A stretch of DNA of 64,000 bases, from NCBI GenBank assembly GCA_038893495.1, contig JAWARJ010000001.1, forward strand, positions 1,167,824 to 1,231,823. Direction: 5' to 3'. Shown in pieces: positions 48,540 to 53,010 of the stretch (the first letter of the stretch is position 1; every line of letters begins with the position of its first letter). The stretch comes from Thermoproteus sp. Lineage in GTDB: Archaea > Thermoproteota > Thermoprotei > Thermoproteales > Thermoproteaceae. The translations under genes were made by a program, and so were the position numbers. The notes under the pieces are model-generated. The model was given only the letters and a program-made list of their open reading frames with translations. It did not search any database and was not told where the DNA came from.

Positions 48540-48917
48540 TTAGTTGCGCCTTCCATCAAGCCTCACGACGACCTTACCCCCCTCCACGTCGAGCCTAGCC
48601 TTGCCAGTGCCCAGCAGATACGCCAACGTTTTGTTGTGGTCGGCGCCGACCTCCCTACACCTCTCTATGAAGGACGAGACCTCCTCGCCGTCCTTAAGCT
48701 CGACCTCCAAGAGTGCCGTCGAGTCGAGCCTCAAAGTGCCCTTTATGACCATCTCCAGCTCCTCATGTATTGCGGCTATCCTGCCGAAGGCATCTATCAA
48801 GACCCCTAGCTCCTCCATGACCTTCCTCACCGCCGAGCTCAACTCCTCGTCGTCATAACGTCCAGCAACTCTGTCCAGCTCCCTAAGGGCCTTGGCGAGA
48901 TCTCTTACGACGTCCAC
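48540..48917 (-). CDS. Helical protein, unknown function
   Basis: A 125-residue protein. The first half is helical and acidic (VRDLAKALRELDRVAGRYDDEELSSAVRKVMEELG), the last part a small strand region (ARLDVEGGKVVVRLDGRR). It overlaps the 3' end of the M48 protease gene by 13 nt, so it is co-transcribed. No family recognised. Confidence 0.5.
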   Translation of the reverse strand: MDVVRDLAKALRELDRVAGRYDDEELSSAVRKVMEELGVLIDAFGRIAAIHEELEMVIKGTLRLDSTALLEVELKDGEEVSSFIERCREVGADHNKTLAYLLGTGKARLDVEGGKVVVRLDGRRN

Positions 48918-49885
48918 AACCTAAGAACTCTGTCGAGTGTATTAGGGTGAGTTTTAATTAAGAATCTAAGTTTGGAATATGTCGGATATAATACGTCCTC
49001 GACCACCTCATTCCACCCCACCTTCAAGAGACCTGTAGCCAAATGTATAGAATTGGCGTATCTATCCGCCTCATATTCGTATAGGCGTATGAGCGACGTA
49101 TATAGAAATGATGCTCCAATTAGATGTATTCCAATTAAATATAAAGATATATTTGAGTATATATAGTTTATTAAATATACCCTCAAGATGAATTCACTTA
49201 TTAGAAATATGAGAATTTTATACATATGACGAAGTTTTATATGGCCTTCTTCATGCTTTAAGGCCGCCTCTAACTCCTCAGGCGTCAACTTGGCCAGAAG
49301 TCCTGTCGTGACCATGATGATGCTCCCAAATGGCGTCTGAAACGACATGGCGTTTGCGATGCGATCTTTGACCACACATATGCCTTTCGCCCTGAAGTGA
49401 TAGGATTCGTATTCGCCTAAAATTTCTGGATTTTCTAAAATTTTCTTTTTATTTCTCCTTAAAAAATCAATATCATTATGTTTTGTTTTAATTATTGTTA
49501 TATAATCTGCATTAATGCATTTACTTTTTAAATAGAAAAATATGGCGAAGTAGCTAGCCAATATGGCCGTAATGCCGATTGCCAGCTGGAGCTCTGTATG
49601 GTGTAGGATAAACGCGGGGGGGACCGACAACATGAAGGGCAGTAGGAGAAATAGGGGGCTCAACTTTATCTCTTGGGGCTCCACAAGCCTTCCGGACTTC
49701 CAGACGCCAATGATGGCAGCGTTGTGCCTGTCGTCTCTAATTAGTTGTTTTAGGTAGAGGAGGTAGGCCGCCCGCTCTTTTAGGCCTTTAAGTCTCGGCC
49801 TCTTTACGTCTATAGCCTCCCCGTCGACTAGAAGGACTCCATTTCTGACCTCTAGGCGTTGCGCCAGCCTCTCTAGGTCGCCCAC
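48905..49885 (-). CDS. M48-family membrane metalloprotease (HtpX-like)
   Basis: A 326-residue zinc protease with HEEGH at 211-215 and the third ligand glutamate in YEYEADRYA (270-277). Membrane segments flank the active site (about 75-93, 100-118, 222-243, 247-266). The N-terminal 65 residues are soluble and charged. HtpX-type enzymes degrade damaged membrane proteins. The start is GTG 49885; catttattag at about 49905-49914 (minus strand) may be the promoter. Coding sequence contains AT-rich patches near 49080-49215 and 49420-49530. Confidence 0.85.
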   Translation of the reverse strand: MGDLERLAQRLEVRNGVLLVDGEAIDVKRPRLKGLKERAAYLLYLKQLIRDDRHNAAIIGVWKSGRLVEPQEIKLSPLFLLLPFMLSVPPAFILHHTELQLAIGITAILASYFAIFFYLKSKCINADYITIIKTKHNDIDFLRRNKKKILENPEILGEYESYHFRAKGICVVKDRIANAMSFQTPFGSIIMVTTGLLAKLTPEELEAALKHEEGHIKLRHMYKILIFLISEFILRVYLINYIYSNISLYLIGIHLIGASFLYTSLIRLYEYEADRYANSIHLATGLLKVGWNEVVEDVLYPTYSKLRFLIKTHPNTLDRVLRLWTS

Positions 49886-49921: not shown

Positions 49922-50284
49922 CTACTGTAGTTTTTCGGACTCCAATATCTCCAATACCTTGTCGGTTTCGTATTTCTCCAAGAGGTCCCAGAGCTTGCCG
50001 CTTCGATAGAGGCCGTAGACTTTGCCCCTAGCGCTCCTCTTGATGACGGCAATATAGCCGCGATGGACGAGCTCGTCGAGGAAGCCCCTAATCATTACTG
50101 TCTTGGCCCTTATGTCTTTTCTGCTATATATACTTAAATCTTGCGCTATTTTAGATGGCCGAAATGTAATTAAATTTCCCTTTGCATTGCGCGTCTGATC
50201 TTGCAGAAATTGTATAGTTATCCTTTTTATCACATAGGAGTCGAGCTTTTCGGAATATTTGTAAATTGTACGAAAGCCTTCCAT
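49922..50284 (-). CDS. Winged-helix-like DNA-binding protein
   Basis: A 120-residue protein with a helix-turn-helix plan: SYVIKRITIQFLQDQTRN, FRPSKIAQDLSIYSRKDIRAKTVMIRGFLDELVHRGYIAVI, then a basic wing KRSARGKVYGLYRSG. The TATA-like gcataaataag (minus strand, about 50303-50313) sits 19-29 nt before the ATG, so it has its own promoter although it follows the ATPase/coiled-coil genes by 20 nt. It is a candidate regulator or DNA-binding component of that cluster. Confidence 0.6.
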   Translation of the reverse strand: MEGFRTIYKYSEKLDSYVIKRITIQFLQDQTRNAKGNLITFRPSKIAQDLSIYSRKDIRAKTVMIRGFLDELVHRGYIAVIKRSARGKVYGLYRSGKLWDLLEKYETDKVLEILESEKLQ

Positions 50285-50304: not shown

Positions 50305-50517
50305 TTATTTATGCGTTTCTTTTCTGTTCATTTTAGTTAGATTCTCTAAAAAAATAATTTTTTCTCTTAATTCATAAATATTTCTCTCAATATATGCTAA
50401 CTTATAATTTAAGTAATTTAGATATATTAAACATGGCTCTAATTCGTCGATCTCTACGCCTAGGTTCTTCAGTATCGCTTTGATTCGTTCAATGTATTCT
50501 TTAAATTCGCCCGACAT
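50305..50517 (-). CDS. Coiled-coil small protein
   Basis: A 70-residue helical protein: an N-terminal helix EFKEYIERIKAILKNLGVEI and a second heptad-like helix YKLAYIERNIYELREKIIFLENL. Unusually AT-rich for this window. The ATG shares one base with the ATPase stop (TAATG), so translation is coupled. It probably binds the ATPase or acts as a dimerisation subunit; unknown. Confidence 0.55.
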   Translation of the reverse strand: MSGEFKEYIERIKAILKNLGVEIDELEPCLIYLNYLNYKLAYIERNIYELREKIIFLENLTKMNRKETHK

Positions 50518-51416
50518 TAAAAGAATTTATATATCTTATATATTTTATCATTTATTATTATTGATGAATGATTTATGTTTAATTTATATGAGATATGGGG
50601 CTTTACGATAATTATATTTGTATGTGCCATGATGTCCTCAGAAGGCAGGGTGTTAGTGACGAGGATGGCCCTTATGCCGTATTTCGCCATTTCTGTAACT
50701 ATATGCTTTATTATGTTCATCGATAATACATTTTGAGCTTCATCTATTATAACAATTAATTCAATATTTTTTGTTATTTTATTTTTCCTAAAATGGTTGT
50801 ATATAAACGTCAATATTAACGATGAGATTAGTACCTTCTCTTCGACAAGCGAAAGGCCCGATAGATCCAACACTACATTTCCCCTATACCTAAAGAGGAG
50901 GGGTATGGGCACCTTCCCCTGGCTTAATGCATCTAGGATATATTCCAGGCGCCTCAACACAGCGGCCTTCATCTCCGTCTCGCTTTTAGTTGTAGTCAGG
51001 TACGAGTCTATGGCGGCTAGGAGGTCTTCCGGCCTCTCTATCTTGTAGTCTTTTATAGACCTATACATAAAGTATATAGATGGCTCGTTTAGGTTCAGCG
51101 AGAGCCCTATCAGCTCCACTAGGATTTTCTTATTGAGGCCAGACACGTCTATTCTCAACTTAGCCGCTGGGACCTTGAGGCCTATGTCGTACTCGCCGTT
51201 CCAGTCCAGCACCAACGTCTTCTTCCTGCTCCTCCTGGCTATCTTCTTGGCTAGGGTGGTCTTGCCGGACCTCGTAGGCCCCATTATCGTTATGTGTTTG
51301 TCCAGCGGCATGTAGACTACGCCGCCCGAGCCGAGCCCTACCGGCACCTCGCCGTCTCTCCACAAATAGGCCGCGGCGGCTGTGGAGATCAAGGCCACGA
51401 GGAGGGGGTCCATCAC
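50517..51416 (-). CDS. HerA/VirB4-like P-loop ATPase with N-terminal hydrophobic segment
   Basis: A 299-residue ATPase. Walker A GPTRSGKT is at 46-53, the HerA/FtsK-like DWNGEYD follows at 71-77, Walker B IVIIDEAQN at 221-229, and a sensor-like ILVTNTL at 251-257. The first 20 residues are hydrophobic (PLLVALISTAAAAYLW) and may anchor it in the membrane. It is shorter than HerA (about 500) and lacks a HAS barrel. The helicase gene overlaps it by 4 nt (ATGA). The first two thirds are GC-rich while the last third (50520-50860) is very AT-rich. Confidence 0.7.
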   Translation of the reverse strand: MMDPLLVALISTAAAAYLWRDGEVPVGLGSGGVVYMPLDKHITIMGPTRSGKTTLAKKIARRSRKKTLVLDWNGEYDIGLKVPAAKLRIDVSGLNKKILVELIGLSLNLNEPSIYFMYRSIKDYKIERPEDLLAAIDSYLTTTKSETEMKAAVLRRLEYILDALSQGKVPIPLLFRYRGNVVLDLSGLSLVEEKVLISSLILTFIYNHFRKNKITKNIELIVIIDEAQNVLSMNIIKHIVTEMAKYGIRAILVTNTLPSEDIMAHTNIIIVKPHISYKLNINHSSIIINDKIYKIYKFF

Positions 51417-52630
51417 CTCTTAGGGGTCTCTCTCAACGTCGCCGATGAGTAGAACCATTGGGGCATGGCCCATCTATATCGCCAGAACCTATCGTCCACC
51501 GCGACTATATACTTCTCTTTTTTCTCTAAATCCCGCATGGCCCTGCCCATAGCCTGTATGGAGTTGCTAATTGCGCTGAAGAGGAGGACGTACTTAAAGC
51601 CGTTGTAGCCCAGCTCGCCTATCAGCCTCATTTTTGATTTAAGCCAGGGGTCTTTGATGTTGGGCAACGGAAATCCGATCAACACCGCAGCGTCGACATC
51701 TATATTCAAGCCCTCGGCAAGAGGGCTACCGAAATATGTCAGGACTATATGAGGCAGATCTCCCAGCGGCCTGTCCGACAGCGGTAAGCCCTTAAGTCTC
51801 CTCTTGTAGTACTCAAATAACTCTTTATTTGGGACAAATACAATTACTTTATTAGACTTAAATATACTTTGAATAATTTCTCTTATTAAATCTACAACAT
51901 ATTTCTTCATTCTATTTTTGTATCTTATTTCTACTGGATATATATCTATAATTAAATTATCAAAAAATATATTATCTCTATTTATATATTTTATATTAAG
52001 CAATTCGATGAACATATCAGAGAAAGGCCTCGTTATTGATGCGCTTGCGAGCACCACATCTCGTCCGCCTAGTAGTCTCCCGACTACTGGCAACAACAAG
52101 CATTTCCGCAACGATTCGTCGCATAGGCGTGTTGACGGCAAGTCCTTCTCTACGGCCAAGTCGTGGAGTAGTAAGTTGTGGGCCTCGTCCACAACTATGA
52201 GCTCTGCGTCTCGAAGCAAGTCGGCTATAGACGAGAGGTACTCTTGACTTTCTAGATAGGAAAGGGGCAGGACCGTTATCTTGCTCTGTCTGCCCAGGGC
52301 TTGTAGGTACTCGTAGGGACACACGCCCGAGTCGTAAATCTCCTCGATCTTCGCGAATCTCCTATCTATATATTTATAGCGGGCTTTACATATGCCTTTT
52401 TCCCTCAACGCCGAGCATTCAGCCACCGTCTTGGCGCCGAATTTACATAACGCCGAGCGGCCGAACATCAAGGACGCGGTCCCGCCGTATGAGGCTATGT
52501 AGGAATATATCTGAAACGCCTCCATATGGGACCTGACGAAGAACACGGCGGGACCGCCGTGTTCTACAGCAATTTTCGCCAGCCTCCTGCTCTTGCCGAA
52601 TCCAGGCGGCGCCTGTAGTAATATCCTCAC
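51413..52630 (-). CDS. Compact XPD/DinG-like Fe-S helicase
   Basis: A 405-residue superfamily 2 helicase of the Rad3/XPD type. Walker A APPGFGKS is at 7-14, the DEAH box VVDEAH at 146-151, a late LIGFPLPNIKDP, and motif VI QAMGRAMRD near residue 368. Between motifs Ia and II four cysteines (C62, C72, C81 and C104, the last in VCPYEY) fit an XPD-type 4Fe-4S domain. It is much smaller than XPD (about 550), so the Arch domain must be minimal or missing. It starts at GTG 52630, 8 nt after a 19-bp palindrome, and overlaps the HerA-like gene by 4 nt. Confidence 0.75.
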   Translation of the reverse strand: MRILLQAPPGFGKSRRLAKIAVEHGGPAVFFVRSHMEAFQIYSYIASYGGTASLMFGRSALCKFGAKTVAECSALREKGICKARYKYIDRRFAKIEEIYDSGVCPYEYLQALGRQSKITVLPLSYLESQEYLSSIADLLRDAELIVVDEAHNLLLHDLAVEKDLPSTRLCDESLRKCLLLPVVGRLLGGRDVVLASASITRPFSDMFIELLNIKYINRDNIFFDNLIIDIYPVEIRYKNRMKKYVVDLIREIIQSIFKSNKVIVFVPNKELFEYYKRRLKGLPLSDRPLGDLPHIVLTYFGSPLAEGLNIDVDAAVLIGFPLPNIKDPWLKSKMRLIGELGYNGFKYVLLFSAISNSIQAMGRAMRDLEKKEKYIVAVDDRFWRYRWAMPQWFYSSATLRETPKR

Positions 52631-52637
52631 GAAGTAG

Positions 52638-52656
52638 GGAGGTCTTTAAGACCTCC
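52638..52656. promoter_or_regulatory. 19-bp palindrome before the helicase gene (possible RNA hairpin)
   Basis: GGAGGTCTT, one base, AAGACCTCC is a perfect palindrome occupying most of the 29-nt gap between the 116-residue gene and the helicase GTG. In the leftward transcript the segment can fold with a 7-bp stem and a UUAAA loop, and its 5' arm contains the Shine-Dalgarno-like GGAGGU. It could act as a translation switch, an RNA processing site, or as DNA an operator around the central TTTAA. Confidence 0.6.
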
Positions 52657-52659
52657 TGT

Positions 52660-53010
52660 TCACGCCTTCTCTACTTCCTCTAAGAGGCGCTTTATGGTAC
52701 TCCCCAATTTGCTCTCTGCTATCTCTTCCAGCTCGAGGCAGTTGCGTAAGATATTAGAGAAAAAGGCCTTTGCCACCTCTCTATCTCTTTCCTTCAGCGT
52801 CCTGAACTTCTCCATCAAGTCTCCCGTGAATATCTGTTCCACCTTAGAGGGGTCCTCCAAAATTAAATGTTCCAAATCTCTTAGCTCCTCCACCAAGTCG
52901 TCCAGGAAGTTCACAAATTCTGCAGGTTTGTTGGCTATATCTATATTGACGTAGGCCCTATTTACGCAATACCTAACGAAACGGTATTGGAGCGCCTTTA
53001 TGGGGTCCAT
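52660..53010 (-). CDS. Helical protein between eL31 and the helicase
   Basis: A 116-residue acidic, helical protein (KALQYRFVRYCVNRAYVNIDIANKPAEFVNFLDDLVEELRDLEHLI; LKERDREVAKAFFSNILRNCLELEEIAESKLG). Start ATG shares one base with the eL31 stop, so the gene is translationally coupled to ribosomal protein genes on one side and precedes the helicase on the other. The overall look recalls small DNA-replication or adaptor proteins, but no family is recognised. Confidence 0.55.
   Translation of the reverse strand: MDPIKALQYRFVRYCVNRAYVNIDIANKPAEFVNFLDDLVEELRDLEHLILEDPSKVEQIFTGDLMEKFRTLKERDREVAKAFFSNILRNCLELEEIAESKLGSTIKRLLEEVEKA

Follow-up and report, generated by a model that had tools for sequence, protein, structure and literature searches.

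Why would an archaeon keep a DNA helicase and a putative membrane-bound DNA pump side by side on its chromosome? The question is raised by a stretch of 64,000 nucleotides from Thermoproteus sp. (GCA_038893495.1, contig JAWARJ010000001.1, positions 1,167,824 to 1,231,823; hereafter the window), which belongs to a genome of 1,995,394 bases. Four minus-strand genes run there from position 53010 to position 50305, closely spaced or overlapping, and encode a 116-amino-acid protein, a predicted Fe-S helicase, a HerA/CedD-type ATPase and a coiled-coil protein. A first-pass annotation made from the sequence alone had described this tightly joined group as a possible DNA-processing module, and its coordinates and junctions are as claimed. 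Our analysis strongly supports a functional unit of helicase and ATPase, which may serve DNA transport.

Helicase and ATPase are kept and lost together

The three genes at the centre of this work are the following.

51413-52630, minus strand: compact, putative Fe-S helicase of superfamily 2, Rad3/XPD-related, without Arch (HBB) domain; 405 amino acids; Helicase_C_2 and DEAD_2
50517-51416, minus strand: HerA/CedD-type putative DNA-pump ATPase with an N-terminal hydrophobic helix; 299 amino acids; DUF87, CedD profile and structure model
50305-50517, minus strand: coiled-coil protein, probable third subunit; 70 amino acids; present in Thermoproteus and Pyrobaculum loci

The helicase and ATPase genes overlap by 4 nucleotides (51413-51416), and the ATPase and coiled-coil genes share a single one (50517). 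The gene order is kept in other Thermoproteus and Pyrobaculum genomes at a protein identity of 42-72% for helicase and ATPase, which argues that the arrangement is not due to chance. One Thermoproteus genome (1,841,542 bases) has about 380-500 extra nucleotides between the two genes (L024, 7218-7714).

Our searches took in 61 genomes, 45 of them from the order Thermoproteales. Within the order, helicase and ATPase were both present in 33/45 and both absent from 12/45, and not one genome had either of them alone. Counted by genus, five possess the pair and three do not; genera g2, g4 and g7 lack the module throughout. Fisher's test for co-occurrence gives p values of 3e-11 by genome and 0.018 by genus, both uncorrected for phylogeny and with genomes that are not independent. 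The pair has also outlived changes of position. Only the ATPase gene was relocated in G010 and G011 (L070 and L071 versus L029 and L031), where the helicase and coiled-coil genes stayed, and in G014 (2,436,033 bases) a rearrangement has broken the locus between helicase and ATPase (L026, L072). Both genes were retained after the move or the breakpoint, which points to function, not position, as what keeps the pair.

Consistent co-occurrence across Thermoproteales, which the first-pass annotation had named as support for a system, is what was found, and the pair recurs far outside the order; the refuting outcome that the annotation had named, genes that fail to co-occur in relatives, did not arise. 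The claim that the combination of such a helicase with a possibly membrane-attached, DNA-pump-like ATPase is new also stands: we found no description of the pairing in the open-access literature searched, although absence there is no proof of novelty.

The coiled-coil protein probably belongs to the same unit. Its gene was found in the Thermoproteus and Pyrobaculum loci, and ATPases of the Vulcanisaeta type bear a C-terminal coiled coil at the same place. That the gene would be a split-off ATPase tail is suggestive only (hhalign probability 65%).

The ATPase is related to CedD and the helicase to XPD

The family assignments proposed for both proteins were borne out by Pfam and NCBIfam profiles. 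The ATPase matches DUF87/HerA in Pfam (1.2e-9), and its best curated match is the NCBIfam CedD profile (NF053655; 4.5e-22), with 78.4 bits for a cut-off of 600. This match covers profile positions 216-485 and leaves unmatched positions 1-215, which correspond to the VirB4-like N-terminal domain between the transmembrane segment and the ATPase domain. The Walker A, LDWxGEY and (D/E)EAQN motifs are conserved, and an N-terminal hydrophobic stretch, judged by hydropathy only, is kept in most relatives, those of family f35 excepted. A structure model with a predicted local distance difference test score (pLDDT) of 80 matched DndH-C, HerA, TrwB and VirB4 in Foldseek.

In the tree, the ATPase falls in one group with the CedD-like ATPases of pilus loci and with short proteins from Thermofilum (Shimodaira-Hasegawa-like approximate likelihood ratio test, SH-aLRT, 88). 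This group adjoins the CedD proteins of Sulfolobales and Desulfurococcales (SH-aLRT 92), apart from CedB, TedB/VirB4-like proteins and HerA. The window genome has several other HerA-type ATPases, and its TedB/VirB4-like proteins fall elsewhere in the tree than the module ATPase, which sets the module ATPase apart from that of Ted, a DNA-transfer system of Thermoproteales powered by a VirB4-like ATPase (PMC9905601). CedD, the nearest characterised kin, shares with the module ATPase the HerA-type domain and an N-terminal membrane helix (hydropathy); it differs in its VirB4-like N-terminal domain and in the helicase pairing of the module. Altogether, these profiles and trees identify the ATPase as a CedD relative with a predicted membrane anchor.

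The helicase matches Helicase_C_2 (3e-12) and DEAD_2 (1e-7) in Pfam. Walker A, DExH, QxxGRxxR and the four cysteines C62/C72/C81/C104 are invariant across 19 sequences and, judging from its family, the protein would carry an Fe-S cluster and move 5'-3'. It thus shares core motifs and the four-cysteine Fe-S pattern with XPD/Rad3 (TIGR00604; PDB 2vl7, 2vsf, 3crv). Its top PDB profile matches are XPD structures (2vl7, 2.5e-33; 2vsf, 7e-32), with about 110 residues unmatched at the position of the Arch domain; the Thermoproteus and Pyrobaculum helicases have there, between motifs II and III, about 45 residues. A search of the window helicase for the HBB (Arch) domain gave no match, whereas HBB is present in relatives from f33, f35 and f40. 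Against TIGR00604 the window helicase scores 43.8 bits for a cut-off of 247, which a relative from f33 passes with 283. A separate canonical XPD is encoded in the window genome, and a branch with SH-aLRT 91 has the canonical XPDs on one side and the module helicase on the other.

The hypothesis that the linked module helicases all form one clade is borderline for rejection (approximately unbiased test, p-AU 0.045), because unlinked Thermofilum proteins fall inside. An AlphaFold model of the helicase from three sequences reached a pLDDT of 45 and was set aside. We also note that the PADLOC profile PDLC01439 (typeIV_DinG) matches this vertically inherited helicase (1.4e-36), so that type IV CRISPR systems might be called falsely in Thermoproteales.

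Some distant relatives lie in pilus operons

When 300 genomes of the phylum were searched with profiles, an adjacent pair came up in 12 further genomes of five families (f23, f33, f35, f40 and f42), f40 including Candidatus Nezhaarchaeota archaeon WYZ-LMO8. In these far pairs the order is reversed, ATPase then helicase, and in most of them the genes overlap or lie a short distance apart. In G076 (L125, 4686-6221), the helicase is followed by a gene for the large subunit of DNA primase and reads as two open reading frames (389 and 216 amino acids). Thermofilum-type genomes (L073-L075, L139, L141) have a short CedD-like ATPase of about 320 amino acids, and two of them (G046, G049) also hold a module-type helicase, unlinked to it.

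In families f35 and f42 the pair stands last in an operon composed of a TFIIB-like gene, a 124-amino-acid protein, T2SSE, two T2SSF-like genes and a protein of 79-83 amino acids. The latter, directly before the pair, has the look of a Flp-type pilin by eye, with no Pfam match above cut-off. In 32 genomes from ten module-free families, homologues of this T2SSE lie, by coordinates, 3-4 kilobases upstream of a CedD-like ATPase. We read 12 such loci (L280-L291), and most have a TFIIB-like gene, T2SSE, T2SSF, a pilin-like gene and then the CedD-like ATPase. From this shared layout, the module occupies a slot held elsewhere by a CedD-like ATPase, and the operon of the ten families may represent the ancestral state of Ups and Ced taken together. 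A thermosome gene beside or beyond one of these loci (L284) suggests an old neighbourhood.

Pilus genes are also close to the pair in f40, but a ligase gene and two opposite-strand genes intervene, and this proximity carries little weight, several T2SSE genes being present in every genome checked. For the same reason, pilus gene counts failed as a discriminator between genomes with and without the module. Strong CedD (76 genomes) and the module (34 genomes) never share a genome (0/34 for 8.6 expected, uncorrected for phylogeny).

DNA import by Sa. islandicus requires CedD, and the Ups pili of Sulfolobales act with CedD (PMC11868833). What the module shares with Ups is that, in its relatives, CedD-family ATPases are linked to the motor genes of a type IV pilus; the difference is that this linkage is seen in other families only, no pilus gene adjoining the Thermoproteus module.

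A proposed role in DNA transport

We propose, with a confidence slightly better than even, that helicase and ATPase, with the coiled-coil protein, constitute a DNA-transport module with two motors, used to take up or exchange DNA. The ATPase would be held at the inner membrane face by its N-terminal helix and may form a HerA/VirB4-like ring that pumps DNA. The helicase, presumably a 5'-3' motor like its family, would meet the DNA at the ring and unwind it or pull one strand, and the coiled coil may tether the two through physical contact. A parallel can be drawn with ComFA, a helicase with a proposed part in the entry of DNA during bacterial transformation. The ComFA-ComEC machinery would be a works-like analogue, in which a helicase assists DNA passage at the membrane; it is not homologous as a system, and ComFA is not known as an Fe-S XPD-type helicase. 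The module would be a counterpart of CedD, most likely serving recombinational repair by letting cells take up or exchange DNA, possibly through a pilus or the Ted channel in Thermoproteus. This reading is favoured because it explains together the membrane helix, the kinship with pumps, the helicase and the pilus operon. The module would then be a variant of the Ced/Ups kind. Our data put a CedD relative in Thermoproteales, constantly accompanied by a helicase.

On the other hand, several observations weigh against DNA transport. No pilus or Ted genes adjoin the module in Thermoproteus (tedA and tedC were not searched for), and its role there is deduced from relatives because no pilus or channel gene is adjacent. 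In f23 and f33, the pair neighbours either a gene for the primase large subunit or genes for cyclophilin-like and radical SAM proteins. The f35 ATPase has no membrane helix, the module ATPase has no CedD N-terminal domain, and key branches of the ATPase tree have SH-aLRT values of 83-92, under 95, which leaves the exact branching order open. G019, probably a Caldivirga, has no module. Given that Ted is reported in Caldivirga (PMC9905601), the module would not be required for Ted. What the analysis shows is that the genes are linked and lost together, that their catalytic motifs are conserved, that the ATPase is kin to CedD and that relatives are tied to pilus operons; the link to DNA transfer is a suggestion drawn from this genomic evidence.

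The main rival holds that pump and helicase act in the cytoplasm on broken or damaged chromosomal DNA, in a HerA-NurA-like manner and with no membrane passage. XPD relatives do take part in nucleotide excision repair, as HerA-type pumps do in end resection; a primase large subunit (L125) and a DNA ligase (f40) are among the neighbours of the pair, and PCNA and primase genes lie about 2 kilobases off in the window. We nevertheless consider such a repair or end-processing role unlikely, as the cassette has no nuclease gene, most lineages retain the hydrophobic helix, the window genome contains further HerA-like genes besides a separate canonical XPD, and the pair holds the pilus-operon slot in f35 and f42. 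One could also think of an FtsK-like pump for chromosome segregation or cell division with a helicase partner, given the FtsK-HerA superfamily, the probable membrane anchor and the stable place beside ribosomal genes. However, a core division function would hardly be missing from three whole genera, no division genes were seen nearby, and we regard this explanation as improbable.

A little less probable still is a defence system against viruses or plasmids. HerA-type ATPases occur in such systems, and PADLOC matched mad8 (6e-13) besides typeIV_DinG, but these matches are to generic ATPase and helicase parts and were set aside. The helicase has the superfamily 2 core of CasDinG from type IV-A CRISPR; it lacks the Arch domain, though, no csf genes are among the direct neighbours, and the locus is fixed on the chromosome. 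Anti-phage HerA systems have a nuclease or effector in operon with HerA, whereas no such family occurs in the cassette or directly beside it. The module is moreover inherited vertically at one fixed locus across Thermoproteales. The ATPase has no plasmid match and the helicase no phage match, and a single weak, short match to a viral contig was found, so that a mobile origin was rejected as well. Finally, helicase and ATPase could be mere neighbours downstream of the ribosomal gene cluster, a place where genes of unrelated function may accumulate. Co-loss without exceptions, the reversed order in far lineages and the retention of both genes after the ATPase relocation make this very improbable. 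Among the roles that the first-pass annotation had offered, DNA transport is thus best supported, repair coming behind it and defence finding little support.

A bolder and more doubtful proposal, made tentatively, is that of a natural-transformation-type machine in Thermoproteota. It would combine a type IV pilus motor, a CedD-family membrane pump and an XPD-derived strand-pulling helicase, the Thermoproteus form being reduced, pilus-unlinked and Arch-less, and the pilus operon with a CedD-like ATPase ancestral to Ups/Ced.

Genes around the cassette

Three further genes accompany the cassette.

52660-53010, minus strand: 116-amino-acid helical protein, conserved upstream neighbour outside the module, kept where the module is absent
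49922-50284, minus strand: winged-helix protein, conserved downstream neighbour outside the module; 120 amino acids; adjoins the 116-amino-acid gene in module-free loci
48905-49885, minus strand: M48 peptidase, stable neighbour; Peptidase_M48 in Pfam (7.9e-16)

The start of the 116-amino-acid gene shares one nucleotide (53010) with the eL31 stop, and 29 nucleotides separate it from the helicase gene. It had been counted as a module member; since it is kept in 44/45 Thermoproteales genomes, also where helicase and ATPase are gone, we consider it a neighbour. In G006, G008 and G017 the next genes after it are the winged-helix and M48 genes, which stay in place upon cassette loss, so that only the helicase-ATPase-coiled-coil cassette is missing; the winged-helix gene adjoins it in the module-free loci L076, L077 and L079. 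The M48 position is constant across most of Thermoproteales. The winged-helix gene lies 20 nucleotides beyond the coiled-coil gene, and its promoter was assigned by eye only. Its product is 90-98% identical within the genus, far above its neighbours, and had no match in Pfam or PDB profile searches; for the 116-amino-acid protein also, profile searches gave nothing informative.

Two further ideas of the annotation did not hold. The link to ribosomal genes, read as a housekeeping sign, is local placement only, several genera having lost the cassette. The AT-rich patches, read as an unusual history, are a Thermoproteus feature (GC content of the ATPase gene 36-44%); of the three Pyrobaculum loci checked, two show normal GC for both helicase and ATPase (0.56-0.60) and one is low (0.39-0.49), and the patches therefore do not indicate foreign DNA.

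Implications

DNA movement between archaeal cells outside Sulfolobales is largely unknown, and Thermoproteales had been listed as having VirB4/TedB and lacking CedB and CedD (PMC11868833, 2025). We now find in this order a CedD relative tied to a specific, putatively Fe-S helicase, with kin in pilus operons across ten other families. This supplies named genes to test and a testable reason for the pairing of pump and helicase. The pilus-linked CedD-like ATPases are candidates for the evolutionary source of the Ups and Ced systems, and the conservation of the pair across distant heat-loving archaeal lineages points to a new motor that would move DNA into or out of cells.
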